DNA from: a virus
DNA: 64,000 bases
Reading direction: 5' to 3' (one strand)
Virus record (IMG/VR): IMGVR_UViG_3300047480_000545
Coordinates: 1-64,000 of that record
The first letter of the stretch is position 1. Each line of letters begins with the position of its first letter. The position numbers were made by a program, and so were the translations under genes. Of this stretch, positions 4,574-55,520 are shown piece by piece. The notes under the pieces are model-generated. The model ran no database searches. It saw only the letters and a list, made by a program, of their open reading frames with translations, and was not told the origin of the DNA.

Positions 4574-7036
4574 ATGAAAACAACAAGGATAACCAACGCA
4601 ACATTCGCAAAAAGTGTATCGTTACTAAAATCTTCTACCGCACTACCAGAAATGTCGTATGTGTTTGAATTAAAATTTACATTGAATAATCCAAACACAT
4701 ACGATGGTGGTTCATATGCAGCAAACGACAAATTTGCAACTGCGATATCGACATCTGGAAACTACACAATCGTTGGTTCACAAGACGAGGGTGACGCTAT
4801 CGGAACCATGTCTGGAGTTGCATATATATATTCAAACTCAACTGGTCAATTATTATACACTCTTAGAAATCCAAATCCATTTGGAACAAGCACAAATGAT
4901 TTTTTTGGACAGGCAGTCGCAATTTCTAACAATTATGCCATAGTTGGTGCATCAGAAAGCGATGCAAATGGAACGGCGTCAGGCAAAGCATATATATATT
5001 CTACATCCACAGGCCAATTGATATATACACTAGACAATCCAAATCCAGTTGACACTAGTCAGAGTGATCGTTTTGGACAGGCAGTCGCAATTTCTGACAG
5101 TTATGTTATAGTTGGTGCAAACGGCGAGGACGATGCTGGGTTGAATTCGGGCAAGGCGTATGTCTTTTCTCTGGCAACTGGGCAATTAGTTTATCAACTT
5201 GATAACGTAAATGCCACCGGAACAACTGCTTCTGACTTGTTTGGAATATCCGTTGGTATAACTGATACATACGCAATTGTTGGCGCACATCAAGAAGATG
5301 TTGGTGGTTCAAGTTCAGGTTCTGCTTACATTTTCTCCATGTCTGATGGCTCCCTGCAATATACACTAAACAACCCAAATGCATATGGAACAAGTGCAAG
5401 TGATTTCTTCGGTAGATCAGTTGCAATTTCTAACAATTATGCCATAGTTGGTGCATACGGCGAGGACGATGCAAATGGAACGACATCAGGCAAAGCGTAT
5501 ATATACTCATTGAGTAATGGGTCTTTACTATATACATTGAACAATCCAAATCCAGTTGGAACAAGTGCAAATGACAATTTTGGATATTACATTGATGTAT
5601 CTGACACACATGCTGTTATAAGCGCACATACAGAAGGAACCAGTGTTGGTGGTGGAGCAATTGCTACTACCGCTGGAAAAGCATATGTATATAACTTATC
5701 ATCTGGAAGTCTGGTGTATACCATTGACGACCCAAATGCTTTTTCAACGGCCACGGCAGATAATTTTTCACAATTTGCAGTTTCAATATCAAATGACTAC
5801 GTGAGTGTTGGTGCATGGAACGAAGATTCTTCCAATGCAGCAGGGACTACAATCAACGCAACAGGGAGAGCTTATATATTCTCTGCAAGCAATGGCACAC
5901 TTCTTCACACATTAACAAATCCAAACGCTTTCGGGTCTGGATCGTTTGACGAGTTTTCTCGTTACAACGGGGTGTCAGTTTCAAGTATGTATACCGTGAT
6001 CGGTGCGGCGAATGAAGACTCTGATGGCGTAATGGACGCGGGAAAAGCATATATATATTCAAACTCAACTGGACAATTACTATATACGCTGAACAATCCG
6101 ATTACTGTAAGTCCTGGATATATAGCGTTTGGCACCTCAGTCGCAAACACAAATGATTATGTCGCAGTTGGGTCTCCATATGGGTATGTTCATGTATTTA
6201 ATACTCAAGGCCAGTTTTTGCATACAATTACAAATCCAATAGCTTCACTTACATCCTTTGGCGACGACATTGATATTGAAGGAACTAATCTCATAGTGGG
6301 GTCATACGGCGCGACTGATGGCGGTCGGGCATATATCTATAATGTTGAAACTGGATCGCTATTATATACGCTTATAAATCCAAATGCTTTTGATACAGCG
6401 GCAAATGACAATTTCGGATATTCAGTTGGTATTTCTAACAATTATGCAATCGTCGGCGCATCATTAGAGGATGATGCAAATGGAACGACATCAGGTAAAG
6501 CATATGTATATTCCACAACTACGGGTCAGTTGCTATATACACTAGACAATCCAAATCCAGTTGGAACAAGCACGAATGACGGATTTGGAACTTCAGTCGC
6601 AATTTCTAACAACTATGCAATCGTCGGTGCATATGGAGAAAGCGATGCTGGTGGAACCAGTTCAGGAAAAGCATACATCTATTCCACAACTACGGGCCAA
6701 TTGCTATATACACTAGACAATCCAACCCCATATGGAACAAGTGCAAGTGATTACTTTGGGCGCTCAGTATCTATATCAAATAATTATGCTATAGTTGGGG
6801 CAGTTTTTGAAGATGATGCAAATGGTTTGTCGTCAGGTAAAGCATATGTATATTCCACAACTACTGGTCAGTTGCTATATACACTAGACAATCCGAATCC
6901 AGTTGGGACTAGTCAGAACGACAATTTTGGACAGTCAGTTGAAATTTCTGGTAACTATGCCATTTTTAGTGCGTATGGTGAAGATGAATCTAATGGATTA
7001 AATTCAGGTAAAGCATATCTATACACATTACCATAA
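4574..7036 (+). CDS. FG-GAP repeat protein, probable virion fibre or adhesin
   Basis: 820 residues made almost wholly of about 14 repeats of roughly 50 residues. The repeat core reads as NDxFGxSVAISNNYAIVGA, then G-x-x-S-G-K-A-Y-I-Y-S and T-G-Q-L-L-Y-T-L, as in FG-GAP (integrin-type) beta-propeller repeats. Two seven-bladed propellers or one long solenoid are possible. No signal peptide. A late promoter precedes it and a strong terminator follows, so it forms a single-gene late unit. A receptor-binding or decorating role is inferred. Near-identical repeats at the DNA level (for example around 6480-6960) imply recent internal duplication. Confidence 0.75.
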   Translation: MKTTRITNATFAKSVSLLKSSTALPEMSYVFELKFTLNNPNTYDGGSYAANDKFATAISTSGNYTIVGSQDEGDAIGTMSGVAYIYSNSTGQLLYTLRNPNPFGTSTNDFFGQAVAISNNYAIVGASESDANGTASGKAYIYSTSTGQLIYTLDNPNPVDTSQSDRFGQAVAISDSYVIVGANGEDDAGLNSGKAYVFSLATGQLVYQLDNVNATGTTASDLFGISVGITDTYAIVGAHQEDVGGSSSGSAYIFSMSDGSLQYTLNNPNAYGTSASDFFGRSVAISNNYAIVGAYGEDDANGTTSGKAYIYSLSNGSLLYTLNNPNPVGTSANDNFGYYIDVSDTHAVISAHTEGTSVGGGAIATTAGKAYVYNLSSGSLVYTIDDPNAFSTATADNFSQFAVSISNDYVSVGAWNEDSSNAAGTTINATGRAYIFSASNGTLLHTLTNPNAFGSGSFDEFSRYNGVSVSSMYTVIGAANEDSDGVMDAGKAYIYSNSTGQLLYTLNNPITVSPGYIAFGTSVANTNDYVAVGSPYGYVHVFNTQGQFLHTITNPIASLTSFGDDIDIEGTNLIVGSYGATDGGRAYIYNVETGSLLYTLINPNAFDTAANDNFGYSVGISNNYAIVGASLEDDANGTTSGKAYVYSTTTGQLLYTLDNPNPVGTSTNDGFGTSVAISNNYAIVGAYGESDAGGTSSGKAYIYSTTTGQLLYTLDNPTPYGTSASDYFGRSVSISNNYAIVGAVFEDDANGLSSGKAYVYSTTTGQLLYTLDNPNPVGTSQNDNFGQSVEISGNYAIFSAYGEDESNGLNSGKAYLYTLP

Positions 7037-9069: not shown

Positions 9070-11736
9070 ATGAAAAAACTTCTACTTGCCCTTTTTATTT
9101 CATTGTCTGTAATCGTGTCCCCCGTGCTTGCTGGCACAGTATATGACACAATTGCGAGTATCAAAAACAAAACAACACAGACCACACTTGCAACGAAATA
9201 CATGAACCAATATTTGGGGTATATTCAAACATATTCTGCATACTTGGATGCCAACAAACATATGGATGGAAATGCAAGTTATGAATCATTGGAAGCAAAG
9301 GTTGCAATGTATAAAGAAGATGTTGCAAAGTTTGCAATTCTTCTTGGTGTTCCGAACCCACTTCAGCCTACTGTTGTAAACACAACTTCAACTAAATCAC
9401 AAAACACCGCAACAATCGTTTCTGACCCTGTGTTGGTGAATACGGTAGTTACAAATGATATTGTATACACTGATACCACTACCGACACTTATGAGGTCAC
9501 CGTAAAGTATTATCAGACTACTACAACTGTTACTCTTACCGAAACGGTTCTTACCACTACCTATTACAGTGACGGAACAAACAAAACAAATACCACTACA
9601 AATGTCATTTCAACGTCTTCGTCGGTATCAGAAACACAAACTACTGACCGAGTTTTGATTAGTTCTGTTCAAAACACAGAAACCAGCCAGTCGGAGTTTT
9701 TGACTGCCGAAGAATATGCTGCTCGTAATGACGTAAGTCTAGCTGGAACACAAACGTTTATTGATGCAGTAAAAGTGACAAACCCATACTATACCAATAG
9801 CACTATTCTAAGCCCAAGTGGTCTTGGACTTTATGCAAACTGGCTTCCTGCTACTGGCGCTCATGTTGCATGGAGTCGTGGATACACTGGTGCTGGTTCA
9901 ACCATTGCAATCCTAGATACTGGCATTGATTTGGACCATCCAGAATTTGATGGACGTATCGTTGGGACCAAATGCTTTACTGTAATGTGCAAAAGTGGGT
10001 ATGAAACCATTCAAGATAATAACTCAGTTTCGCATGGCACACATGTTGCTGGTATTGCGGGTGCAGCATTAGATGGCGTTGGCATGACTGGTGTTGCGCC
10101 TGACGCTGACCTGTTGATTGGCAAAATTGGTCATGATAGCGGATATATTGAACTTGACCAACTTGGTAATGGTATCGCATGGGCAGTATCAAATGGCGCA
10201 GATGTAGTAAACGTAAGTGCCGAAATGAGTATGGATTCTACATACCGTAATAGTGTAGTGTCTATTGGCGATGGTTTTTACTATAGCACCTACAGCCCAT
10301 ACCAATCTCTTGGTTACAACCAAGTGCTAGATAGCAACAACTTCACTGCTCCTGTTATCAGTGCGATGAGTGGAAATGACACTGTTCTTGTTGTGGCTGC
10401 TGGTAACCAAGGGTTGGCATTTCCAGCGTTTCCTGCTCACTATGCCACTATCACTGATGAAAATGGCAACCTTGCACTTGACGGTCGGGTAATCATTGCT
10501 GGTTCGTTTGACCTTGGAACAAATAATATTGCTTCTTACTCAAACCGTGCTGGAACAATGTGCTATGATTACAATTCCGTAACTAATCAGTGTAACAATA
10601 CCTATCGTGTTAGCGACTATTATTTGATGGCTCCTGGTTCTTGGGTCACTTCAACCGATAATGGTGGGGACTATCGTGCTCTGAGTGGAACATCTATGGC
10701 TGCTCCCGCTATTTCTGGTGGCGTAGCACTAGTTCATCAAATGTGGCCATACATGACAGGCGATAATATTGTAAAACTACTCATGGAAACTGCGGACAAA
10801 TCGTTTGCTGGCTATAATGTAAATATTCACGGTCAAGGCGTCATGGACCTTGATAACGCAACGTCTCCACAGGGTGCAATTGGTATTCCTACGACTGGTC
10901 GGATTGATGGGGCAACCGCTTCGCTTGATGGGCAACTTTCTGTTGCAGGGATGAATATGGCTTCGTTGTCCAGTATGATGGTCGTTGATGACTATGATCG
11001 AAACTTTTATGTTGATGGCAACAAACTGAACGTTGCTACTGATACTCGCATGGTGAACCCAGTTCTGGCAGCATCGTATAACTCAAATGCAGACAATTAC
11101 ATGGGTTATACAAAAGGACTAAATATCAATATCGGCAATGTTGCTGTATCTACAAACACTGATGGAACAAACTATGGTCTATCATATAACGCAGGATTTA
11201 TGACATTCGGGATGATGAAAGAAGATGGTTCATTCCTTGGAAACACGGCGAACAGTCCAATCATGAATGTAACTGGTGCGACTACAACTTATGTAAGTTT
11301 CAATCCAGAAATTCAAACTGGAAACGGCTCACTGTTTGGGAGTATTGGATTTGGTGCGACTGACCTGAATGTTGGAGATAACTCTATGATGAAAAGTGCT
11401 GGAACTATAATCAGCAACACAGCAAGCATTGGTGCAAAATTCAACACGAAAAACGGACACTTTGGAGTTGTGGCGGCACTTCCAGTTTCCATTCAATCTG
11501 GGGAAGTGTCAATGGAATATGCATCTTCCGTAAGTGCTGAAGGTGTGGTATCATCTGCTTCTGCAACTGAATCTCTTGCGAATAATAGTCGTGAAGTAAA
11601 TCTTGGTGTGTTTTACAATGTAGACGTAGCACCAATGACTAACGTTTCTATGTTTGCAGAAGTTCGCGAAAATTACATGGGTATTGCTGGCGAAACCGCG
11701 CCACAGATTGGCTTTACCCTTACACAAAGGTTCTAA
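9070..11736 (+). CDS. exported subtilisin-family serine protease with possible outer-membrane C-terminus
   Basis: 888 residues. A clear signal peptide (MKKLLLALFISLSVIVSPVLA) is followed by a Thr-rich stretch at about 100-230. The S8 catalytic triad lies in AILDTGIDLDHP (Asp, about 282), SHGTHVAGIAGA (His, about 323) and SGTSMAAPA (Ser, about 545). The C-terminal 250 residues are Gly/Asn-rich with alternating hydrophobic strands and end in QIGFTLTQRF, a terminal Phe as in beta-barrel autotransporters. A phage-made surface or periplasmic protease is unusual. It could process envelope or virion proteins; a virion-bound role cannot be excluded. Confidence 0.85.
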   Translation: MKKLLLALFISLSVIVSPVLAGTVYDTIASIKNKTTQTTLATKYMNQYLGYIQTYSAYLDANKHMDGNASYESLEAKVAMYKEDVAKFAILLGVPNPLQPTVVNTTSTKSQNTATIVSDPVLVNTVVTNDIVYTDTTTDTYEVTVKYYQTTTTVTLTETVLTTTYYSDGTNKTNTTTNVISTSSSVSETQTTDRVLISSVQNTETSQSEFLTAEEYAARNDVSLAGTQTFIDAVKVTNPYYTNSTILSPSGLGLYANWLPATGAHVAWSRGYTGAGSTIAILDTGIDLDHPEFDGRIVGTKCFTVMCKSGYETIQDNNSVSHGTHVAGIAGAALDGVGMTGVAPDADLLIGKIGHDSGYIELDQLGNGIAWAVSNGADVVNVSAEMSMDSTYRNSVVSIGDGFYYSTYSPYQSLGYNQVLDSNNFTAPVISAMSGNDTVLVVAAGNQGLAFPAFPAHYATITDENGNLALDGRVIIAGSFDLGTNNIASYSNRAGTMCYDYNSVTNQCNNTYRVSDYYLMAPGSWVTSTDNGGDYRALSGTSMAAPAISGGVALVHQMWPYMTGDNIVKLLMETADKSFAGYNVNIHGQGVMDLDNATSPQGAIGIPTTGRIDGATASLDGQLSVAGMNMASLSSMMVVDDYDRNFYVDGNKLNVATDTRMVNPVLAASYNSNADNYMGYTKGLNINIGNVAVSTNTDGTNYGLSYNAGFMTFGMMKEDGSFLGNTANSPIMNVTGATTTYVSFNPEIQTGNGSLFGSIGFGATDLNVGDNSMMKSAGTIISNTASIGAKFNTKNGHFGVVAALPVSIQSGEVSMEYASSVSAEGVVSSASATESLANNSREVNLGVFYNVDVAPMTNVSMFAEVRENYMGIAGETAPQIGFTLTQRF

Positions 11737-12493: not shown

Positions 12494-12987
12494 TAAACGC
12501 AATATTTGCAATGGACGACAATTGGGGCATAGGAAAGAACGGCGACTTGCCATGGCCCCGTAACTCTGCCGACTTGAAATGGTTCAAAGATTGCACCAAT
12601 GGTCATTCGGTGGTAATGGGAAGAAAGACATGGGATAGCCTTCCATATAAACCACTATCCAACCGTCTGAACTTTGTAATATCGTCTTCCATGAATCCAA
12701 ATGAATGGAAGAACGCACCCCATGGAGTATATAGTGGCAATCCTTCTAGAATCATCAAGGAAATCATAGAAACTAGATACTCGGAATACATTACATGGGT
12801 CATCGGCGGCGCTTCGCTTATTGAAGACTGCCTTGATATTATAGATGAATTGTGGATAAGTAATATTAGTGGAATATATGATTGTGACGTGTTTTTACCA
12901 AAAGAAAAAATAACAAGCCAATTCTATATTCACAATAACGAAATAATAGATAGCGGACTATCTATCACAAAATGGAGAAAAAAATGA
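12490..12987 (+). CDS. folA: dihydrofolate reductase
   Basis: Reduces dihydrofolate to tetrahydrofolate with NADPH, supporting thymidylate synthesis. 165 residues, normal length. N-terminal WGIGKNGDLPW, cofactor motif VVMGRKTWDSLP (about 40-51) and VIGGASLIE (about 103-111) are diagnostic; the catalytic acid is Asp in NSADLKWF. No thymidylate synthase gene is in the window. Coupled by ATGA to the Fe-S carrier. Confidence 0.93.
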   Translation: MINAIFAMDDNWGIGKNGDLPWPRNSADLKWFKDCTNGHSVVMGRKTWDSLPYKPLSNRLNFVISSSMNPNEWKNAPHGVYSGNPSRIIKEIIETRYSEYITWVIGGASLIEDCLDIIDELWISNISGIYDCDVFLPKEKITSQFYIHNNEIIDSGLSITKWRKK

Positions 12988-13310
12988 GTGTTGTGACACT
13001 AACCGACAAAGCAATCAATCACTTTACTAATATCGCATCTGGAAAACTGGTGAAGTTTGGCATCATCGGTGGTGGATGCGCGGGTTTCCAATACCATTGG
13101 GAAATATTCGATGAAGTCAAGGACCATATGTTTGGCGATGAGGTTCAAGAATACGATAACTTCACTCTGTATGTTGACAGTCACAGCCTAATGTATCTTA
13201 TCGGAACGACTGTTGATTATGTCAGCGATATCACTGGAAGTAAAATTGAACTTTTCAATCCAAATGCACAATCTGGCTGCGGATGTGGAGTTTCGGTGAA
13301 CTTTGCGTAA
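12984..13310 (+). CDS. A-type iron-sulfur carrier (IscA/ErpA-like)
   Basis: 108 residues from the ATGA start. The three conserved cysteines are present: GGGCAGF near residue 36 and SGCGCG at about 99-102, the HesB/IscA signature. Delivers or holds Fe-S clusters. A-type carriers occur in other large phages. An in-frame ATG 12 bases upstream is less likely. Confidence 0.88.
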   Translation: MSVVTLTDKAINHFTNIASGKLVKFGIIGGGCAGFQYHWEIFDEVKDHMFGDEVQEYDNFTLYVDSHSLMYLIGTTVDYVSDITGSKIELFNPNAQSGCGCGVSVNFA

Positions 13311-13755: not shown

Positions 13756-15153
13756 ATGACTGGACTTATTCTAGGCATCGTCTTTATTATTGCGGCAATC
13801 GCAATCAAAGCTGTGCCTCTGGTGCCTGAACTACGAAAAGTAAAAACAATCGTTTCATCTGCGGTCGCCGTTTTTGGTGTTGCAATTATCGGTCTTGGGG
13901 CCGTAAGTTACAATGACGCTGGATACTGCCAACACACTCGGAGTATTTTTGGAACAGAAACCGCAGTTTGCGAAACAGGTTGGTTTTTTGTCGGTTGGGG
14001 AACTTCTACCGCATGGCCTCACTTCATTACAGTCGCAAACACGATTGATATTGAAGCGGATGGCAGTTCTGTCACGGGTCCATATCGTGTTCGCCTAGCA
14101 GACAACTGGACAGGTGATGTTACTCAGACCACTCGTTTTGCAATCCCACAAGATCAAGAACAATTCTTGACGATGGCACGAACCTTCCGTAGTCCTGAGC
14201 GTCTGATTAGCACTACTCTGAAACCTGCCGTTACTGCATCGCTTGACTCGGTTTCCAACATGTTTACCATGGAAGAATACTACTCTGGTGGTAAGCGGGA
14301 CCAATTCAAGAGCGAGTTCAAAGATACTGTTGAAAAGGGTCGTGCGCAAGTTCGTCAAGTGTCTTTCAACCAAGCGGGTGGCGTAATTCCTAGTCGTGCC
14401 GCTCCATCAAGTAGCGATGTTGCTGCCGACACTTCAGAAGTTGGCGACACAGAAGTTCGTCGTGTTATGATGGAAAAAGTGACAGACGCAAGCGGCAATG
14501 ACATCCGAACCCCACATGACTTTGCGGAAATCGGTGTTGTTGTATCATCTGCAATTCTTGAAAACATTGACCCAGATGATGAATATGAGCGTCAAATTGG
14601 TGAACGTAAGAAAGCTGCGTCTCGTCGTGTAGTTGCTCGTGAACAACGCCTTGAGCAAGAAGAACAGCGTCTGCTGGCTATTCAACAAGGTGAAACTGAC
14701 ATTGCCAAGCGTCAAGCAGAAGCAAAAGTGGAACAGATTGAAAAGACTACAAACGCCGAAACCACGAAAAAACTTGCTCTAATTGAAGCTGAACGTATCC
14801 GCGAGGAAGCCCGAATTGCACAAGAAACCTCGGAAATCAATCTGGAACGTGCAAAGGTTGACGCACAATCTGTAACTGTTGCTGCCGATGCAGAAGCCTA
14901 CGCCAAACAAGCTATCCTTGAAGCTGACGGTGCGCTACAACAGAAACTTGATGCTTGGGTTGAAGCACAACGTGTATGGGCAGACGCCGCATCTAAAATC
15001 AATGTTCCTTCCACTGTGATTGCTGGTGGTGGTAGCGATGGGACTGCGGGAAATGCACTTGGAACCGTAGACCAGTTTATGCAACTGATGATGCTAAACT
15101 CTGCAAAGCAACTGAGTGTTGATCCTACTATCGGAAACCCTGTAAAGCAGTAA
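13756..15153 (+). CDS. SPFH/band-7 membrane scaffold protein
   Basis: 465 residues. Two N-terminal hydrophobic segments (about 3-20 and 33-52), then an SPFH domain (about 60-290, with FHRS-type strands and TLKPAVTASL), then a long charged helix rich in Glu-Ala-Arg repeats (about 275-400), ending in a Gly-rich linker. Prohibitin/stomatin-like proteins oligomerise into membrane cages and often regulate membrane proteases. ClpP-fold proteases are encoded 0.8 kb and 3.5 kb downstream. Single-gene unit between the 13500 promoter and a strong terminator. Confidence 0.82.
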   Translation: MTGLILGIVFIIAAIAIKAVPLVPELRKVKTIVSSAVAVFGVAIIGLGAVSYNDAGYCQHTRSIFGTETAVCETGWFFVGWGTSTAWPHFITVANTIDIEADGSSVTGPYRVRLADNWTGDVTQTTRFAIPQDQEQFLTMARTFRSPERLISTTLKPAVTASLDSVSNMFTMEEYYSGGKRDQFKSEFKDTVEKGRAQVRQVSFNQAGGVIPSRAAPSSSDVAADTSEVGDTEVRRVMMEKVTDASGNDIRTPHDFAEIGVVVSSAILENIDPDDEYERQIGERKKAASRRVVAREQRLEQEEQRLLAIQQGETDIAKRQAEAKVEQIEKTTNAETTKKLALIEAERIREEARIAQETSEINLERAKVDAQSVTVAADAEAYAKQAILEADGALQQKLDAWVEAQRVWADAASKINVPSTVIAGGGSDGTAGNALGTVDQFMQLMMLNSAKQLSVDPTIGNPVKQ

Positions 15154-16542: not shown

Positions 16543-16563
16543 CAGTAAAAATAAATCAAAATA

Positions 16564-16597
16564 AAAGAACAGTGATTACTCACTGTTCTTTTTTTAT
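16564..16597 (+). terminator. rho-independent terminator
   Basis: AAAGAACAGTGA / TCACTGTTCTTT 12-bp stem, TTAC loop, followed by T7, after the ClpP-like gene. It separates this unit from the stator module. Confidence 0.88.
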
Positions 16598-16703: not shown

Positions 16704-17159
16704 ATGTCTAAAGTTCTAAAATGGTGGCTAGTTTTTTGTTTATCATTAGTTATGGGATACATTGCATACATCTTTGGATGGACTTGGGAAATTTACACCA
16801 AGGATACAACTAAAATAAGCGTCTTGATTATAGCGTTGTATATAATTGCAAGTTTGTTTGTTGGAAAATTGTCTTACGAAAATTCCAAAAACAAAATAGT
16901 AGAAGAAAGAACCGAAATTGCATGGTTCATAAGTGAAACTATGTTGACACTTGGTATGATTGGAACCGTTGCTGGTTTTATTATGATGCTAGGCGGTTCG
17001 TTTGCTGAAATAGATGCTTCTAATCCAGAAACACTAAAATCTGCACTTGTCGCAATGGCGCTTGGTATGAGCACTGCACTATATACTACTCTTGTCGGGT
17101 TGGTATGTAGTCAAGTATTAAAGATACAACTTGTCAATTTAGAGTCAGGCAACCAATGA
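16704..17159 (+). CDS. MotA/TolQ/ExbB-like proton-channel protein
   Basis: 151 residues from the ATG that has GGAG eight bases upstream. Hydrophobic segments at about 6-24, 38-57, 73-95 and 110-133. LGMIGTVAGFIMML and LVAMALGMSTALYTTLVGL reproduce the paired TM3/TM4 signature of the ExbB/TolQ/MotA family, whose pentamers conduct ions around a single-pass partner. The cytoplasmic loop is short. The next gene encodes a suitable partner, so a complete, ion-driven stator is inferred. An AT-rich GATAAATAAATA stretch upstream may serve as a late promoter. Confidence 0.75.
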   Translation: MSKVLKWWLVFCLSLVMGYIAYIFGWTWEIYTKDTTKISVLIIALYIIASLFVGKLSYENSKNKIVEERTEIAWFISETMLTLGMIGTVAGFIMMLGGSFAEIDASNPETLKSALVAMALGMSTALYTTLVGLVCSQVLKIQLVNLESGNQ

Positions 17160-17160
17160 T

Positions 17161-17874
17161 ATGAAAAGATCACACTACGGAAGTGGCATAGCATTTAATG
17201 ATTTGTTATTCAACTTGTTGGTGGGATTTGTATTTTTGTTCACGGTTGCATTTATTTTAATCAATCCGCAAGCGAAAAAAAATGATATACCATCAAAAGC
17301 TGAATACCTATTCGCCATCGAATGGGACTCAGAATCGTATGACGATATTGATATTTGGGTAAGAGACCCAAATGGAATAACCGTAAGTTTCTTGAGTAAA
17401 GATGGCGGTTTACTCAATCTTGAAAGAGACGATCTTGGTAAAAGTAACGATACGTATGAATCCCCAGATGGGACAGAGACTATTGTAAAAACCAATCGGG
17501 AAGTTACTACAATGCGTGGAATTATCCCAGGAACTTATACAGTTATGGCCCACGTTTTCAATAAGTATGAAAATAAAAATAATCCAGACCCATATTCTCC
17601 ATTGTCTTTTAAAATGATACGTGTGAATCCGTATCAAGAAGTATATACTTCAGAACACAGATATAAAGATAAAGGCCAAATCGTTCCAATCCTACAATTC
17701 GATTTAGATGAAAATGGAAAGGCAAGCAATTTTAGATTTCCTACTGAAAATATAGTAATAAAATCCAATTCCAGAATTAGTGGTTCACTTATATCTGACA
17801 CGTTTGTCAGTGGTGGATTGCAAAAATCTAATAAAAAATATACCGCAGGGTCAAGTTTCATAAATGTAGAGTAA
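17161..17874 (+). CDS. MotB/ExbD-like stator partner with large periplasmic domain
   Basis: 237 residues. A short cytoplasmic tail leads to one TM segment (about 15-37). An Asp sits at its start (FNDLLFNLLVGF, Asp14), where ExbD, TolR and MotB carry the ion-binding Asp. The remaining 200 residues are predicted periplasmic and beta-rich: EWDSESYDDIDIWVRDPNG resembles DUF2135/YfaP-type beta domains rather than an OmpA peptidoglycan-binding domain. It begins one base after the ExbB-like gene. The unusual effector domain suggests that ion flow drives movement or opening of an unknown periplasmic element. Confidence 0.65.
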   Translation: MKRSHYGSGIAFNDLLFNLLVGFVFLFTVAFILINPQAKKNDIPSKAEYLFAIEWDSESYDDIDIWVRDPNGITVSFLSKDGGLLNLERDDLGKSNDTYESPDGTETIVKTNREVTTMRGIIPGTYTVMAHVFNKYENKNNPDPYSPLSFKMIRVNPYQEVYTSEHRYKDKGQIVPILQFDLDENGKASNFRFPTENIVIKSNSRISGSLISDTFVSGGLQKSNKKYTAGSSFINVE

Positions 17875-17880: not shown

Positions 17881-18366
17881 ATGATATATAGCAGCGAATT
17901 GTTACCTATTTTAATATCCCTTATGTTCCTATCAATTGTTGTATTGTGGGTAGCGATAAGAAACTATAAAAATTTCCTGATTACTTTTATAATCATACCA
18001 GTAACATTCGTTAGTGTCATTACAAGTTATCTCACATTACAGAACCTTTTAGGATTTCCCGTTGTTACTCCAATTCCAAATGACAGTTTTTATATAAATC
18101 ACATTGTTGATGGTGATGTGATTTATGTTTGGGCATGGCCGACTGAAACTGAAAAGCCTAGACTGTATAGTATTCCAAATACTGAGCAAAACAAAAAGGC
18201 GATGGATGAAGCAGCAAAAGCACAAGAAGAAGGCAAAGGCCAAAAAATTGGTCAAGAAGGTGCAGACCAAGATGGAACTGGAGTAGGCAAAGGGCAAACG
18301 CAGGGTGGAGAATATAACACCTATGACTTTGTTGTTACTGATCCAGACAATTTAAAAGGAAATTGA
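17881..18366 (+). CDS. two-TM membrane protein of the stator operon
   Basis: 161 residues. Hydrophobic segments at about 8-25 and 31-55, then a periplasmic domain with VIYVWAWPTETEKPRLYSIP. A Lys/Gly/Gln-rich low-complexity stretch follows (about 108-140: EEGKGQKIGQEGADQDG), ending in YDFVVTDPDN. Six bases after the previous gene. No family recognised; likely part of the same envelope complex. Confidence 0.6.
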   Translation: MIYSSELLPILISLMFLSIVVLWVAIRNYKNFLITFIIIPVTFVSVITSYLTLQNLLGFPVVTPIPNDSFYINHIVDGDVIYVWAWPTETEKPRLYSIPNTEQNKKAMDEAAKAQEEGKGQKIGQEGADQDGTGVGKGQTQGGEYNTYDFVVTDPDNLKGN

Positions 18367-18367: not shown

Positions 18368-18628
18368 ATGGAATACAATGCAGTCCTAGTAGTGGTTTAC
18401 TTTATAGTATCGGTGTTCAATGTGCAACTCGGAGCACCGATTATTCAACACATACCGTATACGTCTTTGGAAGATTGCAAAGCACATGCCCAAATGCTAG
18501 AAAATCAAAAGACGCAAATTGACATAGAATGGACTGTCTATTCAAGGTCACAATGTATGACACGTCAAGAATATGATGCCGCAGTTGCGGAACAATCAAA
18601 ACAACAACCAGACACACCCGCACAGTAA
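18368..18628 (+). CDS. small exported or membrane-anchored protein
   Basis: 86 residues. An N-terminal hydrophobic segment (about 4-22) is followed by a small domain with two Cys (SLEDCKAH near 36 and SRSQCMTR near 61) that could form a periplasmic disulfide, and a Gln/Pro-rich end. The layout resembles small phage and bacterial proteins with a C-x(20-25)-C pair. Same operon as the stator pair. Confidence 0.55.
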   Translation: MEYNAVLVVVYFIVSVFNVQLGAPIIQHIPYTSLEDCKAHAQMLENQKTQIDIEWTVYSRSQCMTRQEYDAAVAEQSKQQPDTPAQ

Positions 18629-18661: not shown

Positions 18662-19525
18662 ATGAATATATGGAAGAAGGTTAGACTCTTTATATTTGAA
18701 TCAATAGAGGGATTGTGGATATATAGAGCGATACGTAGGCTGATTTCACAGCCATTAATGCTCTCGCTAATAATCATCATAATGTTGTTAGCTGGAAATC
18801 AAATAAGAATGTCATATAACGCATACAACGAGTTATACACTGAACTAAACAATCCCTCAAAAGAAGTTACTGCGGTAGAAGAAGTTGGGTTAGAGTTCAA
18901 ACAGATTGATGACAACTTGTATACATTAACTGGTGGCATAAAAGAAGGCGATTGTCAAAAAATCGTCCCGTTGTTACCAGACCATTTCACTGTTATTTTA
19001 GAAAGCCCTGGCGGAAGTCTTGCAGATGGTTCATGTCTGGCTGCACATTTCAAAATACGGGACGTAGTAACGGTTGTCCGTGCAACCCCAGTTTATAATG
19101 ACATGGGGAAAAATATATACCAACCAGGATTGATAGCACCAAAAGACTCTGGTATGGAGGGAAACTCAATATGCGCCAGTGCTTGTGGTCTGCTATTCTT
19201 GGCTGGTGATGTTCGCTATCTGATTGGCGATGTATGGTTTGGTATACATTCTCCTGCAACCCCAGAAGGCGCTGGTGGAGGAATGAACCAGTCGCAAGTC
19301 GAATCATCAACGTTGAGAGTTGCCAGTAGCTTGTTATCGTTACTTGAAGATTTGGGCGTCACAGATGCAGACGTAAGACAACTATTCATTCAAATACCAA
19401 ATTCGAATATGTATTGGCTAAAGCCAGATGACTTTAAAGTTAAGCCAGGATTACTTAACATCGCAACAAATTATAGAAACTTTTGGGGTTTTACTGCTGC
19501 TAACCCAATAAGTGGATTAGAGTAG
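18662..19525 (+). CDS. membrane-anchored periplasmic ClpP-fold serine protease
   Basis: 287 residues. One TM anchor at about 36-56, then a ClpP/crotonase-like domain outside: VILESPGGSLADGS (about 117-130), catalytic Ser in SICASACGLLFLAG (about 172), His in FGIHSPATPEGAG (about 196). This matches predicted periplasmic ClpP-class proteins (COG3904 type). Together with the cytosolic ClpP-like protein at 15907, the phage carries two proteases of this fold. Own GGGG-type ribosome site; same direction as the stator and transporter genes. Confidence 0.72.
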   Translation: MNIWKKVRLFIFESIEGLWIYRAIRRLISQPLMLSLIIIIMLLAGNQIRMSYNAYNELYTELNNPSKEVTAVEEVGLEFKQIDDNLYTLTGGIKEGDCQKIVPLLPDHFTVILESPGGSLADGSCLAAHFKIRDVVTVVRATPVYNDMGKNIYQPGLIAPKDSGMEGNSICASACGLLFLAGDVRYLIGDVWFGIHSPATPEGAGGGMNQSQVESSTLRVASSLLSLLEDLGVTDADVRQLFIQIPNSNMYWLKPDDFKVKPGLLNIATNYRNFWGFTAANPISGLE

Positions 19526-19536
19526 GGAGATAAAAA

Positions 19537-20601
19537 ATGCTAAAAAGTTTCTTTTGGAACAGAGAAACCGCGTTATATTCTTGGCTAATGTTAGCATGGT
19601 TGCTATTCGTTGGTTGGTATAGCGTTGAAATTCTCGTATATTATAATGCGTGGAACAGAGAGTTCTATGATGCCATACAAACGCTACAAGAGGAAACCTT
19701 TTGGGAATTGTTATGGGGTTGGGATACAGGAAGATTTTTTGACTTTCTAATGCTAAGAATCGACTCCGAAATGATTGTTCCCAGTTTCTTGGAAATCATT
19801 GTGCTATACACTCCAATCGCAGTTTATTCAACGTGGCAAACACAGCGTTACACGTTTGCATGGAGAGAAGCAAACACGATGTATTATCTAAAGCGTTGGG
19901 AAAAATCAACGGCAAAGATTGAAGGTGGCTCACAGCGTATACAAGAAGACTTGATGGTCTTTGGAAAAACACTACAAGGTCTATTTGCTGGATTTGTGAA
20001 TAAGATTTTTGTTCTTGCAGCTTTCTTGCCAGTTTTGTGGAATCTGAGCGAAGGACTGCCAGTGTGGGGCGACCAAATAATTCCTGGGTTCTTGGTGTGG
20101 GTTGCTCTTACCATGTCCTTGGGCGGAACATTGCTGTCATTCTTGTTGGGTATAAAACTTCCTGGGTTAGAATATAACAACCAAGTGGTAGAAGCACAGT
20201 TTAGAAAGAAGTTAGTTCATTCCGAAGATGATTTCAACCATCGTTTGACCGCAGACCTATTCCCTATGTTTGCTTCAATCAAACGTAACTATTATCGTTT
20301 GTTCAACTGGTATATGGGATTTGGTGTATGGCAAACCGCATTTGGTATGATAGCAGGAAACGTGGCTCTTGTTGTGCTGGCACCAAGCTATTTCGCACAG
20401 TTGGTTACATTTGGTGTTCTCATACAAGTTCTAAATGCGTTTGGACGAGTTGAAAGTGCGCTTACATACTTCATTGACCGTTGGACAACGATTGTTGATT
20501 TCCAGTCTGTTATAAAGCGTTTACGAGAATTCAACAGAGTGTTGGACGAAGCTGACGCCAACTCGGCTAATGCGACACCACCAAGTAACCCCACACCATA
20601 A
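19537..20601 (+). CDS. SbmA/BacA-like inner-membrane peptide transporter
   Basis: 354 residues with about six or seven TM segments. Several stretches are diagnostic of SbmA/BacA: GGSQRIQEDLM (about 129), LGIKLPGLEYNNQVVEA (about 205-221), RRNYYRL-type IKRNYYRLFNWY (about 249-260), and FGRVESALTYFIDRWTTIV (about 305-323). SbmA is a proton-driven dimer that imports microcins, bleomycin and antimicrobial peptides, and BacA/BclA protect alphaproteobacteria from plant peptides. The cellular protein is about 400 residues, so this copy lacks part of the C-terminus. A phage-encoded copy could import a peptide signal or toxin or change host peptide sensitivity. Last gene of the module. Confidence 0.85.
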   Translation: MLKSFFWNRETALYSWLMLAWLLFVGWYSVEILVYYNAWNREFYDAIQTLQEETFWELLWGWDTGRFFDFLMLRIDSEMIVPSFLEIIVLYTPIAVYSTWQTQRYTFAWREANTMYYLKRWEKSTAKIEGGSQRIQEDLMVFGKTLQGLFAGFVNKIFVLAAFLPVLWNLSEGLPVWGDQIIPGFLVWVALTMSLGGTLLSFLLGIKLPGLEYNNQVVEAQFRKKLVHSEDDFNHRLTADLFPMFASIKRNYYRLFNWYMGFGVWQTAFGMIAGNVALVVLAPSYFAQLVTFGVLIQVLNAFGRVESALTYFIDRWTTIVDFQSVIKRLREFNRVLDEADANSANATPPSNPTP

Positions 20602-50538: not shown

Positions 50539-50615
50539 GGTTCCGTAGCTCAACTGGATAGAGCAACAGCCTTCTAAGCTGTGGGTTGCAGGTTCGAGTC
50601 CTGCCGGAATCGCCA
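50539..50615 (+). tRNA. tRNA-Arg(UCU)
   Basis: Acceptor GGTTCCG/CGGAATC, G73 and encoded CCA; anticodon stem ACAGC/GCTGT with loop CTTCTAA. Reads AGA, a codon likely rare in an alphaproteobacterial host but used by this AT-richer phage. Confidence 0.95.
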
Positions 50616-50735
50616 ATATTAGGAAAGATACTTAGTATACCGTTGAGAACCTTTTCCTTTCTGTTCTCTTTGGGATATGGAAGTAGTCACTGACACGGCG
50701 GGTTTGGGGGCTGGTGTCGGAACAAGTAATAAAAT

Positions 50736-50812
50736 GCCCTCGTAGCCCAAAGGCAGGAGGCAGGAGACTTAAAATCTCTACAGTGTGGGTTCGAATCCCA
50801 CCGGGGGCACCA
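50736..50812 (+). tRNA. tRNA-Leu(UAA) with short variable loop
   Basis: Acceptor GCCCTCG/CGGGGGC, A73, CCA. Anticodon stem GGAGA/TCTCT, loop CTTAAAA. The variable region is only about five bases (ACAGT), not the long arm of bacterial tRNA-Leu; this reduced form is known from other phages. Confidence 0.88.
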
Positions 50813-50926
50813 TTTAGAAGGTAATGCGATGGCGGTAGCGGGACAATGGTCCTACAGGGATGATGCTCTGCGTCTAGGTTACTGAAAGCAGTTTTTCGGA
50901 GTCTGCGACAAACCGAACAGAATTAC
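50813..50926 (+). ncRNA. structured spacer between tRNAs
   Basis: Ends pair (GTAAT 50821-50825 with ATTAC 50922-50926). Inside, GTAG-GGAC-AATG-GTCC-TAC makes one hairpin and ACTG-AAAG-CAGT-TTTTT makes a terminator-like one. No open frame. May be a tRNA-processing linker or small RNA. Confidence 0.35.
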
Positions 50927-51003
50927 GGTCCTCTATCATAATTGGTGAATGAGCGTTCCTCATAAGAACGGATATCTCGGTTCAAGTCCGAGGGGGACTA
51001 CCA
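50927..51003 (+). tRNA. tRNA with CAU anticodon, candidate tRNA-Ile2
   Basis: Acceptor GGTCCTC/GGGGACT (wobble closing pair), A73, CCA; anticodon stem CGTTC/GAACG, loop CTCATAA. The TilS gene starts 251 bp downstream, so lysidine modification to read AUA is plausible. Three other CAU tRNAs in the window cover initiator and elongator Met. Confidence 0.9.
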
Positions 51004-51021
51004 AAATAAAAAGGTCTGAAT

Positions 51022-51273
51022 ATGATTGATATGTCGTTTATAAAAGTCCTTCCATCTGATTACACTGATTATGGTGGAGAAGTCAAACGATGGGCCGACA
51101 ATCAAGATTACCCAGACTGTAGTTGTGGATGTAAATGGTTTTTGCCTCTTGACGGGGAACTTGGATTTGATTATGGTGTATGTGCGAATAAGAAGTCTCC
51201 ACGACTCGGCCTTCTAACATTTGAACACCAAACAGGAAAAGACTGTTTCGAATATGATCAAAATCCAAGGTAA
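51022..51273 (+). CDS. Cys-rich zinc-binding hypothetical protein
   Basis: 83 residues. CSCGCKWFLPL, YGVCANKKSPR and GKDCFEYD provide five Cys in a pattern (C-S-C-G-C-K-W-F ... V-C-x-N-x-x-S-P-R-x-G-L-L-T-F-E-H-Q) shared by small uncharacterised bacterial and phage proteins. Overlaps the TilS start by 20 bases. Confidence 0.62.
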   Translation: MIDMSFIKVLPSDYTDYGGEVKRWADNQDYPDCSCGCKWFLPLDGELGFDYGVCANKKSPRLGLLTFEHQTGKDCFEYDQNPR

Positions 51274-51847
51274 AATCCCACGTGAAGTGATTGTCGCTTG
51301 TAGTGGCGGCGTTGATAGTATGGCAGTTGTTGACTTCCTAAGTCGCAATCATACAGTCCGTCCCCTATTTGTAAATCACGGAACTGAAACAAGTAGAGAA
51401 GCAGAAAAGTTTCTTGATTCTGTATTTGGTGAACGTCTCATCAAGACATGTATTTCTGATGAAAACCCTCCCAAAAATACGTCTCAGGAAGAACATTGGA
51501 GAAACGAGCGATACAAAATCTTCTATAGTATGGATGTGCCAGTTGTAACTTGTCATCACTTGGATGATTGCACTGAAACTTGGATTTGGTCGTCATTGAA
51601 CGGTTTTGGTAAAGTTATTCCATATCGCAACATGAATGTTATTCGTCCATTTCGTATGAACCGTAAGTATGAGTTTGTTGATTGGTGTGAACGAAAAAGC
51701 ATTGAATGGATTGAAGATAAAAGTAACAGCGATACAAAGTATATGCGTAACTTTATTCGTCATGAGTTGATGCCAAAAGCGTTAGTTGTAAATCCTGGTT
51801 TGTATAAAGTAGTTGCAAAAGTTGTGAAAGAGGCGTCAGTAGCATAA
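51254..51847 (+). CDS. tilS: tRNA(Ile)-lysidine synthetase, minimal
   Basis: Converts C34 of tRNA-Ile(CAU) to lysidine so that it reads AUA as Ile. 197 residues, only the catalytic N-terminal domain of the usual 320-440. PP-loop SGGVDSMAVVDF (about 20-31), HHLDDCTETW (about 104-113) and the hallmark EDKSNSDTKYMRNFIRHEL (about 160-178). Next to a CAU tRNA and in a tRNA-rich region. The minimal size suggests a dedicated phage tRNA substrate. Confidence 0.88.
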   Translation: MIKIQGKIPREVIVACSGGVDSMAVVDFLSRNHTVRPLFVNHGTETSREAEKFLDSVFGERLIKTCISDENPPKNTSQEEHWRNERYKIFYSMDVPVVTCHHLDDCTETWIWSSLNGFGKVIPYRNMNVIRPFRMNRKYEFVDWCERKSIEWIEDKSNSDTKYMRNFIRHELMPKALVVNPGLYKVVAKVVKEASVA

Positions 51848-51850
51848 ATA
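51843..51850 (+). promoter_or_regulatory. T4-type late promoter (CATAAATA)
   Basis: One mismatch from TATAAATA; overlaps the TilS stop and lies 20 bp before the 51870 gene with GGGGAG between. Confidence 0.5.
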
Positions 51851-51869
51851 GTGTGAGGGGAGAACTTAC

Positions 51870-52085
51870 ATGAATATGTTACAGCTAAATCCACCGATAC
51901 CTCTTTATACGCCAAGAGGTCCAGCATTGGCGCATGTTTTGATAGATTATGGACCAGAACATAACTTGATGTGGGTTTGTTTTGGTGATGATGATGGACA
52001 GTGTTGGACTTGGCCAAACAACAAAGTAAGAGCACAAAAAAATATTTCTCTTGGTAGAGAGATAGATAATACAAAAGATTTATAA
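51870..52085 (+). CDS. hypothetical small protein
   Basis: 71 residues starting MNMLQLNPPIPLYTPRGPAL, with NLMWVCFGDDDGQCWTWPNN in the middle. Similar short proteins follow structural gene clusters in T4-like phages. Function unknown. Confidence 0.6.
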   Translation: MNMLQLNPPIPLYTPRGPALAHVLIDYGPEHNLMWVCFGDDDGQCWTWPNNKVRAQKNISLGREIDNTKDL

Positions 52086-52089
52086 ATTT

Positions 52090-52174
52090 GCCCGTATGGT
52101 GAAATTGGTAGACGCGCCTGACTCAAAATCAGGTTCCTAACGGAGTGGGGGTTCAAGTCCCTCTACGGGCACCA
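52090..52174 (+). tRNA. tRNA-Leu(CAA)
   Basis: Class II. Acceptor GCCCGTA/TACGGGC, A73, CCA; anticodon stem CCTGA/TCAGG, loop CTCAAAA; long variable arm. Confidence 0.95.
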
Positions 52175-52384
52175 TAGACGTTCTGTGTAGCAACAGATAG
52201 TATGGGCGGTAACCCATATGATGAGAAGCGATGTAGCAACCGCAAAAAAAGCCCGAAGCAGAGTAATGCCGTGTATCGTAGCACGTGAGTGTTGAAGACT
52301 GGACTAGGTTGAAGCTGTGTGGCCAGCTACGGCGCACCTACAGTGGACTGGGTAGAAGGGATAAAGATGCATACGATTTATTAT
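52175..52384 (+). ncRNA. structured spacer, no gene
   Basis: 210 nt without a credible frame. Hairpins: ATGGG/CCCAT around 52202-52217, CGTG/CACG around 52271-52286, AGCT/AGCT around 52311-52326. May be one or two small RNAs between tRNA-Leu and the tRNA-like RNA. Confidence 0.3.
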
Positions 52385-52481
52385 GTTGGACTGGCATGGT
52401 GTGCTGATGTTGTTTCATATATTCGGGCAGGCGGATGAAACAAATTGTTCAAAGCAGGGTTCAAATCCCTCTCCAACACCA
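52385..52481 (+). ncRNA. tRNA-like RNA with extended anticodon-position hairpin
   Basis: Ends pair as a tRNA acceptor (GTTGGA/TCCAAC), A73 and CCA are encoded, and the T loop TTCAAAT with GGG/CCC stem is intact. In place of the 5-bp anticodon stem and 7-nt loop there is a 9-bp stem TTGTTTCAT/ATGAAACAA (52410-52418 with 52435-52443) with a 16-nt loop. Either a tRNA with an insertion in the anticodon loop or a decoy. Confidence 0.6.
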
Positions 52482-52492
52482 GAGGTTAAAAA

Positions 52493-53113
52493 ATGAGTAG
52501 ATTAGTTGTTTTTGGTTGCAGTTACACATATGGACACTCGTTAGAGGATTGTCATACCAATGAATATCCATATATAACATCGTATCCAAGTAAGATGGGT
52601 TGGCCAAATACTCTCGCTGAAAAACTAGGAATACAAGAAGTAGTAAACAAAAGTATTCCTGGTGCTAGTAATAAAAAAATATGGAAAACTGTAGTTGACT
52701 TTGGTTATCATCAAGATGATATTGTTATAGTAAATTGGTCTTTTATTACAAGAACAACATATTTTAGAGAAAACTCGGATGATGTTTTTATACTACCAAG
52801 ATATTCAGAGTATGAATGGTATTATGAAAACTTATATTCTGAATATGATGGTTTAATAGATTTGAATTTAAGAGCGGACCATATACACCGATATTTATGG
52901 TCAAAAGATGTAAATAACTTTCACGCACTTTTATCTATTTCTAATATTACCTCAAAAAGTGTTGGAAATTGGATGAGTTTTGAATTTTTGAAATCTGATT
53001 TTGATAGTATTAGATTAAAATATCCTCCTGCATTGGATGGATCACATCCAAATAAAGATGCTCACGATGAATACGCTTTGTGTTTGTTTAACGAGTTGAA
53101 TGGTAAAATTTGA
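52493..53113 (+). CDS. SGNH-hydrolase-like protein
   Basis: 206 residues. LVVFGCSYTYGHSLEDC replaces the GDS block, NKSIPGASNKKIW matches block II (Gly), VIVNWSFITR block III, and LDGSHPNKDAHDEYA supplies the Asp-x-x-His block V. SGNH esterases deacetylate surface glycans or lipids; phage members of this short type are conserved but uncharacterised. Between tRNA-like RNAs. Confidence 0.72.
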   Translation: MSRLVVFGCSYTYGHSLEDCHTNEYPYITSYPSKMGWPNTLAEKLGIQEVVNKSIPGASNKKIWKTVVDFGYHQDDIVIVNWSFITRTTYFRENSDDVFILPRYSEYEWYYENLYSEYDGLIDLNLRADHIHRYLWSKDVNNFHALLSISNITSKSVGNWMSFEFLKSDFDSIRLKYPPALDGSHPNKDAHDEYALCLFNELNGKI

Positions 53114-53114
53114 A

Positions 53115-53280
53115 ATATAAAACCCTCTGGATTTGCCACGTAAGTTAACCCATGCGGCTGTGGATGGGACTTATCCTTAACAATCTTTAAAATCTGTTCC
53201 TCTCTGATACAGAGAATGATGCTGGTATACCGTAAAATGTCGTGTTCCCGCGCATAAGCATCTGGTTGGGGGTTTTATAT
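53115..53280 (+). ncRNA. structured RNA closed by a 13-bp terminal stem
   Basis: ATATAAAACCCTC (53115-53127) pairs with GGGGGTTTTATAT (53268-53280), one G-T pair. Internal hairpins: CCCAT/ATGGG, TCTCT-GATAC-AGAGA, GATGCT/AGCATC. No open frame. The 3' arm overlaps a late promoter. Confidence 0.6.
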
Positions 53281-53285
53281 AAATA
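53278..53285 (+). promoter_or_regulatory. T4-type late promoter (TATAAATA)
   Basis: Exact consensus, just six bases before the 53291 ATG, so the transcript would have almost no leader. It may serve the methyltransferase at 53517. Confidence 0.6.
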
Positions 53286-53290
53286 CATTT

Positions 53291-53542
53291 ATGAGAAATG
53301 TATTAACAAACTATATAAAAAGATGCGGCACCGCATTTAGTATTCTCTTCAATGTAGTGATTGGTGGAGAAAGCAATCAAACTTTTAGTGCAAGAAATTG
53401 GCATTGGAAACGAACTAACAAACCAAACATCGTATGGTTTATAAACTTGGTATTTAACGATAGCCACCATTGTATGGAGAGTTGGGTTTATTGGAAAGTA
53501 AGAAAAGAAATTCCGAATGACCGAAGTAAAAACATGGAATAA
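53291..53542 (+). CDS. hypothetical small phage protein
   Basis: 83 residues: FSILFNVVIGGESNQTFSAR then HHCMESWVYWKVRKE. The GG-x-x-x-Q-T-F-S-A-R and H-C-x-x-S stretches recur in a small conserved phage family of unknown role. Overlaps the methyltransferase by 26 bases. Confidence 0.62.
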   Translation: MRNVLTNYIKRCGTAFSILFNVVIGGESNQTFSARNWHWKRTNKPNIVWFINLVFNDSHHCMESWVYWKVRKEIPNDRSKNME

Positions 53543-54227
53543 AATATTTAACAATCCAAATCTTTCATGGGTTTTAGAAACAAACAAAATACTAGTATCA
53601 ACTGACAAATCGGTATTTGATTCATCTTTTGAATTGCACAAGGCCATTTTTGATTGCGACAAAAACACATTCAAATCGTATGTAGAATACATGATGGATT
53701 TTGTTGAAACAAATTCGTCAATAGCTGAGTTTGGATGCGGAAACGCTGCATTATTACATTACCTTCACCACACATATGGAAATGATGTATATGGAATTGA
53801 TATAAGCAAACAACTTATAGACCAATGCATGATACTGTTTCCTATGCAAGCACATCACTTTTTTGTTTCCGATAAAAAAATACCGATAACTGATAATAAA
53901 GTTGATTGGTTCATATCAAATTCAGTTTTTCAATATCTATCATATGATGATGCTGATTACGTCACTCAAGAAATGCTACGTTGCTCAAAATATGGCGTTG
54001 TGATATCCGATGTGAAAGATAAAGAAACAGAGAATCTTTTCAAGGAAAAGCAAGCAAACAGACAAAATCTAACACTTGAGCAATTGTCTGAGAAATACAA
54101 AACTACTCCACTTACATTCTATGACAAAAGTTTTTTTGATAAGTATAAGAATGTTGAAATTGTTCCCATGCTGACATCATACCCAGATGCGGAACTTGGT
54201 TCATATACGGTAGTGATACGAAAATAA
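53517..54227 (+). CDS. SAM-dependent methyltransferase, class I
   Basis: 236 residues. Motif I IAEFGCGNAALL (about 63-74), motif II DVYGIDISKQLID, and motif IV VDWFISNSVFQYLS (about 127-140). Target unknown; Met-10-type small-molecule methyltransferases share this layout. Precedes a tRNA-Ser by three bases. Confidence 0.78.
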   Translation: MTEVKTWNKIFNNPNLSWVLETNKILVSTDKSVFDSSFELHKAIFDCDKNTFKSYVEYMMDFVETNSSIAEFGCGNAALLHYLHHTYGNDVYGIDISKQLIDQCMILFPMQAHHFFVSDKKIPITDNKVDWFISNSVFQYLSYDDADYVTQEMLRCSKYGVVISDVKDKETENLFKEKQANRQNLTLEQLSEKYKTTPLTFYDKSFFDKYKNVEIVPMLTSYPDAELGSYTVVIRK

Positions 54228-54230
54228 AAA

Positions 54231-54320
54231 GGAAAGTTGGCCGAGCGGTCGATGGCACTCGTCTACTAAACGAGCAGGGGGTGAAACCTCTCGTGGGTTC
54301 GAATCCCACACTTTCCGCCA
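54231..54320 (+). tRNA. tRNA-Ser with ACU anticodon
   Basis: Class II. Acceptor GGAAAGT/ACTTTCC, G73, CCA; stem CTCGT/ACGAG, loop CTACTAA, so A34 where bacteria use G34 (GCU). A separate tRNA-Ser(GCU) lies at 59414. Confidence 0.85.
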
Positions 54321-54325
54321 TATCT

Positions 54326-54333
54326 TATAAATA
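54326..54333 (+). promoter_or_regulatory. T4-type late promoter (TATAAATA)
   Basis: Exact consensus, 33 bp before the ornithine-decarboxylase-like gene and right after a tRNA. Confidence 0.65.
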
Positions 54334-54365
54334 ACTGTGTTGTTTTACGAAAGGGTCACAACACT

Positions 54366-55496: not shown

Positions 55497-55520
55497 GATA
55501 AATAAAACAGCATATAATTC

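Follow-up and report, generated by a model that had tools for sequence, protein, structure and literature searches.

We found that a phage gene for a short SbmA/BacA-like transporter (SBMA) is the last gene of a tight operon, which also encodes an ExbB/ExbD-like pair of proteins and a membrane-anchored protease, and that these genes stay close to the transporter gene in most of the related phages. This linkage to the motor-like pair and the protease, overlooked by the first-pass annotation of the same DNA, is a better clue to the function of SBMA. We propose that the cassette is a phage-borne envelope import module in which SBMA would serve as the inner-membrane importer of the infected cell; in our judgment the chances that this reading is right are about even.

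A short form of the SbmA/BacA family

The window, i.e., the whole 64,000-nucleotide stretch of DNA that was analysed, is a part of a 202,706-bp IMG/VR virus record. The presence of phage families in this record (such as RNA ligase, virion structural protein and tRNA nucleotidyltransferase) supports the earlier placement of the gene on a phage; no match in the record was obtained for the packaging families Terminase_6N and T4 portal, with the portal search run without a working control.

The open reading frame of SBMA, from its ATG through the stop codon, occupied exactly the interval and strand given in the first-pass annotation (Table 1). The strong SbmA/BacA match reported there was reproduced as well. 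The Pfam SbmA_BacA profile (PF05992) was matched with E=7e-78 and 262.7 bits (cut-off 24) over positions 3-314 of 315, and a comparison with solved structures identified E. coli SbmA (7p34, 1.9e-57), with residues 14-338 of the query aligned with residues 86-395. The best NCBIfam model was PRK12369, 'putative transporter' (NF009036), with 8.7e-86, while the score of 288 bits was under the 385-bit equivalog cut-off of this model. Simple hydropathy indicated six hydrophobic segments, in agreement with the six core TM helices of the family. The Pfam profiles produced no match to an ABC ATPase or nucleotide-binding domain in the 354-residue protein.

Since the alignment with SbmA begins at residue 86, the N-terminal helices TM0a and TM0b are absent from SBMA. 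The same region is absent from cellular short relatives in PF05992 (323-338 aa), and the cellular PRK12369 model is only 326 aa long. We therefore consider SBMA a short form rather than a fragment, as six segments remain beyond the missing region. An earlier remark that the protein is about 50 residues short is correct with respect to E. coli SbmA; it does not hold as a statement of truncation, as only the TM0 region is missing. We regard the assignment of SBMA to the SbmA/BacA-like family, made from sequence comparison, as secure. In comparison with the nearest locus (L001), pN was low (0.096) while synonymous sites were saturated (pS 0.78). Conservation far beyond chance confirms that SBMA is a real gene. 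We also observed a match (5e-12) between the C-terminal two thirds of SBMA and PHROG 11436, which is described as of 'unknown function' and may be the same family.

Table 1. Positions of the cassette genes, of other elements of the window and of related loci in other records
Feature	Location	Strand	Length	Basis or remark
FG-GAP-like repeat protein	4574..7036	+	820 aa	many repeats
Subtilase	9070..11736	+	888 aa	PF00082, 5e-36
IscA-type iron-sulphur-carrier-like protein	12972..13310	+		homologue in L027 matches PF01521
SPFH/Band 7 protein	13756..15153	+		phrog_11908, 4e-101
CLPP, ClpP-like protease without TM segment	15907..16542	+	211 aa	PF00574, 5.2e-33
Intrinsic-terminator-like hairpin, parts CLPP from the MOTA-to-SBMA operon	16563..16592	+		stem of 13 pairs and T-rich tail, by consensus match only
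MOTA, MotA/TolQ/ExbB-family four-TM protein	16704..17159	+		PF01618, alignment
TOLR, single TM segment and TerD-like beta-sandwich	17161..17874	+	237 aa	ExbD/TolR/MotB-like by position and topology
P161, two-TM protein, third gene of the trio	17881..18366	+	161 aa	alignment
P86, small protein; N-terminal segment hydrophobic, two Cys invariant	18368..18628	+	86 aa	alignment
PROT, membrane-anchored ClpP-fold serine-protease-like protein	18662..19525	+	287 aa	alignment, AlphaFold2, Foldseek
Shine-Dalgarno-like AGGGAG, 5' of SBMA	19524..19529	+		sequence
SBMA, SbmA/BacA-like inner-membrane transporter, short form without TM0 region	19537..20601	+	354 aa	PF05992
tRNA genes	50539..63890			22 genes
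MOTA-TOLR-P161 trio in cultured Rhizobium phages	L413 4461-5968; L414 4459-5932; L415 4426-5930
BtuB-like receptors of second-lineage phages	L419 6340-8687; L420 6868-9214			PF00593/PF07715; TIGR01779 below cut-off; records of 243 and 328 kb

Distribution among viruses and phylogeny

A scan of IMG/VR revealed 53 loci that encode homologues of SBMA with 65-87% identity. The single match in GTDB, obtained with a narrow query, was a contig of a metagenome-assembled genome, laid out like the viral contig L031; apart from this contig, a search of 398 bacterial genomes from the same phylum with the PROT profile gave no close match. Judging from the kinds of genes present, we consider the phages carrying SBMA to be probably mostly marine.

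The tblastn searches of a collection of 50,697 phage records, with four matches per search, produced no convincing cultured phage with an SbmA gene, in line with the earlier opinion that an SbmA/BacA gene on a phage is unexpected. Of the matches, the Acinetobacter 'phage' L060 (CAKLQH020000002.1) looks like a bacterial chromosome (mreB, gatCAB, sbmA), and the others were short, unannotated records; none of the matches was accepted as a phage gene. In the literature searched, with incomplete coverage, we found no earlier report of such a phage SbmA or of the cassette.

A tree of 59 rows, with phage and cellular SbmA-type proteins, placed the phage proteins of the window type (the first lineage) in one clade with support 99/98, outside the cellular sequences, including the clade of long SbmA/BacA proteins. 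BacA and SbmA themselves are nested deep within that long cellular clade. The first-pass annotation had suggested a link of the gene to traits that depend on BacA in alphaproteobacteria associated with plants or animals, and had named a phylogeny as the way to see whether it branches within alphaproteobacterial BacA. It does not: a clade of the phage proteins with Sinorhizobium BacA was rejected by the AU test (p=7e-5), and the suggested link to those traits is not supported.

Conservation of the glutamate ladder

The glutamate ladder of SbmA consists of E193, E203, E269, E276, E287 and E378; mutations of ladder glutamates impaired E. coli SbmA, and E203 is the first proton acceptor in the published model (PMC13316013). 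In SBMA, four of the six positions are kept (E193, E269, E276, E287), along with the gate tyrosine equivalent to Y368, while E203 is replaced by Gln and E378 by Asp.

The pattern is typical for the lineage. Among 21 sampled first-lineage phage proteins, the four retained glutamates are present in all, position 203 is Gln in 17, and position 378 is Asp or Lys in 18. The sampled cellular SbmA-type rows have Glu at both of the latter positions in all but two cases, and E203 is retained in near-basal phage branches (e.g., L131); the protein of L048 also has Glu at this position. To go by these residues, Gln at position 203 could mimic the protonated state, and proton coupling of the phage proteins may differ from that of SbmA. 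Because of the incomplete ladder, we do not file SBMA as a proven proton-coupled SLiPT. Thus, of the earlier description of the protein as a proton-driven peptide importer, the SbmA/BacA family membership stands, while 'proton-driven' becomes uncertain with two of the six ladder positions changed.

Composition and conservation of the cassette

The gene order in the window is CLPP, the terminator-like hairpin, MOTA, TOLR, P161, P86, PROT and SBMA, with gaps of 1, 6, 1, 33 and 11 bp from MOTA to SBMA. For counting associations, we dereplicated the first-lineage loci at 90% identity to 23 representatives. PROT adjoins SBMA in 22 of them, the MOTA-TOLR-P161 trio is located within six genes of SBMA in 18, and CLPP is within the same distance in 12. 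The first two counts speak for an import module; they are not independent trials, since the representatives share ancestry.

Two gene orders were seen in related phages, MOTA-TOLR-P161-P86-PROT-SBMA and PROT-SBMA-MOTA-TOLR-P161-CLPP, and the flanks of the cassette were mostly unlike those in the window. In one large group, P86-PROT-SbmA is situated beside other genes, one of which appears RNase H/exonuclease-like. Of nine cases of the group without an adjacent trio, four had the trio elsewhere in the record; in G002 the distance is about 32 kb. No other cassette protein is as well conserved as the SbmA-like one, with a mean identity over loci of 76% compared to 31-54% for the others. Just before MOTA in L027 (6078-6905), and also in related phages, there is a 275-aa outer-membrane-porin-like protein with no Pfam match.

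The trio is distributed more broadly than the SbmA cassette, with 301-333 viral relatives, and is present in many phages with no SbmA detected nearby, an observation that counts against the import module. All three trio genes are adjacent in cultured Rhizobium phages, where they are annotated as hypothetical proteins; P10VF is one Rhizobium phage with the trio. Strong TOLR matches were found in about 14 of the 398 bacterial genomes, with MOTA or P161 adjoining TOLR in the loci that we read. Bacterial chromosomal operons of the MOTA-TOLR-P161 type (L430-L434) are located near two-component systems.

Properties of the partner proteins

In PROT, Ser173 and His196 are invariant in 28 aligned sequences; the third catalytic residue was not identified. 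The AlphaFold2 model (pLDDT 86) had ClpP structures as the top Foldseek matches (E 1e-7), and there is one N-terminal TM segment. We conclude that PROT is probably a serine peptidase of the ClpP fold with catalytic Ser and His, its activity being predicted. The relative of PROT in L137 has a signal-peptide-like stretch at its start in place of the TM anchor, which suggests that the protease domain would be periplasmic. In CLPP, Ser113, His138 and Asp190 are all invariant.

The open reading frame of MOTA opens at 16686; homologues begin at the Met at 16704, which we took as the start. MOTA matches PF01618 (4.9e-7, 30 bits against a cut-off of 22.9) and, with about 150 aa, is a minimal four-TM form. 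TOLR has an invariant Asp14 within its TM segment. Its AlphaFold2 model (pLDDT 80) had no Foldseek match at E 0.001, and a sequence comparison of TOLR with the PDB returned chance-level matches only; the soluble part aligned by VIA-align with TerD structures (Z 8.2-10.2, about 4 A). Comparison with ExbD revealed no significant sequence similarity, which weighs against the import module; the proposed relation to ExbD follows from the topology, the Asp residue and the place behind MOTA.

In most viral and some cellular loci, P161 occupies the third place in the trio. We considered P161 as a candidate TonB and rejected this assignment, as no similarity was found. Homologues of P86 are present in 36 loci.

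A second lineage of phage SbmA proteins

Starting from trio loci, we recovered a second lineage of phage SbmA proteins (321-327 aa), with at least 161 loci in IMG/VR. These sequences keep Glu at both the E203 and the E378 positions and score above the PRK12369 equivalog cut-off (412 vs 385 bits). The trio is within six genes of the transporter gene in five of eight representatives, some of which have ClpS and ClpP nearby. In some, ClpS is encoded between the trio and the transporter. ClpS is directly before, and NfuA and FeS_assembly_P directly after, the SbmA gene in L246 (4385-6027, with the transporter gene at 4721-5692) and L235 (9238-11135). Of 12 larger second-lineage records without an adjacent trio, 11 lack TOLR, so the partnership with the trio is not obligatory in this lineage.

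The tree sets the second lineage apart from the first, while a common clade of both phage lineages was not rejected by the AU test (p=0.126); two independent acquisitions are therefore favoured and no more. In two phages of the second lineage, a TonB-dependent receptor resembling BtuB is encoded beside a DUF6580 gene, and in one of them (L419) a T4-type terminase is situated about 3.4 kb upstream of the receptor.

Parallels in cellular genomes and known systems

Two Vibrio plasmids have the gene order M16 protease, short SbmA-type transporter, ExbB, ExbD, TonB, and a longer stretch of a Vibrio plasmid contains a TonB-dependent receptor near that operon. An SbmA-type transporter together with a TonB-dependent receptor is present in a Photobacterium plasmid as well. 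These plasmid arrangements are similar to protease-associated import systems (PMC6793856). A TonB-dependent relative of PqqU and of siderophore receptors is encoded near the cellular trio in L431, while other cellular trios have no such neighbour; a quinoprotein-relay metallohydrolase is also encoded near the L431 trio. Searches of 12 phage records, which may be incomplete, revealed neither a TonB_C domain nor a TonB homologue.

With the SLiPT proteins SbmA and BacA, SBMA shares a full-length PF05992 match, six core TM segments and the lack of a nucleotide-binding domain; it differs from them in the absence of TM0, the altered ladder, the clade of its own, and the linkage to a protease and an ExbB/ExbD-like trio. 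In length class and lack of TM0, SBMA resembles the short PRK12369 transporters of Vibrio and relatives, and the Vibrio transporters also adjoin a protease and ExbB/ExbD; on the other hand, SBMA scores under the equivalog cut-off of that model.

In the Fus and YddA-PqqL-YddB import systems, as in the cassette, a protease is paired with an inner-membrane transporter of the SbmA/YddA type (PMC6793856). Still, the cassette protease is membrane-anchored and has the ClpP fold, not that of M16, and neither TonB nor a TonB-dependent receptor was found in the window phage (no Plug-domain match in its 202-kb record, which may be incomplete). We therefore rejected assignment of the cassette to the Fus systems, for which a FusA-type TonB-dependent receptor and an M16 protease would be expected in the cluster. 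The MOTA-TOLR pair resembles ExbB/ExbD, TolQ/TolR, MotA/MotB and ZorA/ZorB in the PF01618 match of MOTA and in the one TM segment of TOLR, which has an invariant Asp close to its N-terminus. It is unlike the ExbB/ExbD-type pairs in the minimal MOTA, the TerD-like beta-sandwich of TOLR and the lack of a significant ExbD match. Membership in Zorya was rejected too, given only weak partial ZorA matches and no match to any other Zorya model.

Other features of the window

Several other genes of the window are listed in Table 1. The subtilase is a phage-encoded secreted protease near the cassette; its C-terminal part, ending with FTLTQRF, resembles an autotransporter barrel. The SPFH/Band 7 protein had no homologue in the other cassette loci.

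Proposed function and alternative explanations

We consider that the proposed import module could work as follows. MOTA and TOLR, assisted by P161, would make up a small motor of the ExbB/ExbD/MotAB type, driven by protons and acting on the envelope. PROT, anchored in the inner membrane, would cut imported or envelope proteins to peptides, and the SbmA-like transporter would take these products into the cytoplasm. There, their further breakdown may be aided by the cytoplasmic ClpP, joined in the second lineage by ClpS, with release of amino acids or of a bound cofactor for phage production. We infer the periplasmic side of PROT, the proton motor activity, the direction of transport, the substrate and the benefit to the phage. 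Besides the family membership of SBMA and the two counts in the first lineage, the import module is favoured by the trio near second-lineage transporters, by the plasmid arrangements of Vibrio and Photobacterium, by the receptors of L431 and of the two second-lineage phages, by the PF01618 match of MOTA and by the anchored ClpP fold of PROT; the changed ladder, the negative searches for TonB and, in the window phage, for a receptor, and the second-lineage records lacking TOLR speak against it. A more specific picture, offered tentatively and with more doubt than belief, is that of a trans-envelope uptake machine in marine phages, built of a TerD-headed motor, a ClpP-fold protease and an SbmA with a rewired ladder, and assembled perhaps twice.

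The alternative that holds up best, though we think it unlikely, is that cobalamin, an iron compound or another non-peptide micronutrient is taken up by the transporter, and not peptides for bulk amino acids. Transport of cobalamin is known for the SbmA-related ABC transporter Rv1819c (PMC13316013), and an iron-sulphur cluster released by the Fus protease has been hypothesised to enter via the inner-membrane protein FusD (PMC6793856). The BtuB-like receptors and DUF6580 genes of the two second-lineage phages agree with this idea, as do the iron-sulphur genes near some phage SbmA genes (NfuA, FeS_assembly_P, IscA-like) and fhuF in the Vibrio operon. However, marine phages often carry iron-sulphur genes, the search of the window phage and of seven other first-lineage records revealed no TonB-dependent receptor, and a protease next to the transporter suggests that the substrate comes from proteins.

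It is distinctly improbable, in our view, that the cassette is a device for envelope defence or takeover (superinfection exclusion, a block of injection, or a Zorya-like sensor) with the SbmA-like protein as a structural or signalling partner. The best NCBIfam match of MOTA was indeed ZorA_4 (1.8e-7), ZorA models are in the PADLOC list, and the changed ladder residues could mean that proton-coupled transport was lost. Nevertheless, MOTA, with about 150 aa, is without the long ZorA tail, and no other cassette protein matches any PADLOC model at E 0.01. The SbmA-like protein is conserved above all its partners, as expected for a working transporter, and proteins of the second lineage retain Glu at both altered ladder positions and score above the PRK12369 cut-off.

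We see little chance that the cargo of the transporter is a specific signalling or precursor peptide, such as one cut by PROT from secreted P86 as a phage-to-phage signal. P86 is small, begins with a hydrophobic segment, is more variable than most of its neighbors, and is encoded beside the genes for a protease and a peptide importer; yet P86 was not detected in the loci where SbmA precedes MOTA, and its conserved cysteines suggest a folded domain. Finally, phages do acquire host genes, but that SBMA is a chance passenger with no role in the phage is hardly credible and largely refuted by conservation: non-synonymous divergence is low at saturated synonymous sites, and the gene is kept across dozens of phages with different flanks, in a tight operon.

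Implications

The SbmA gene is nearly always beside the protease and the ExbB/ExbD-like trio, which suggests that the phages bring a ready-made uptake machine. A part of the import idea can be tested now, since the trio is present in cultured Rhizobium phages. If the idea is correct, some ocean phages would add envelope uptake capacity, so that infected cells would not run on stored nutrients alone, and the substrate of the import would reveal what limits phage production. The SbmA family is known mainly as an entry route for antimicrobial peptides; with a protease and a proton motor as natural partners, the family would gain a context that bears on its native role.
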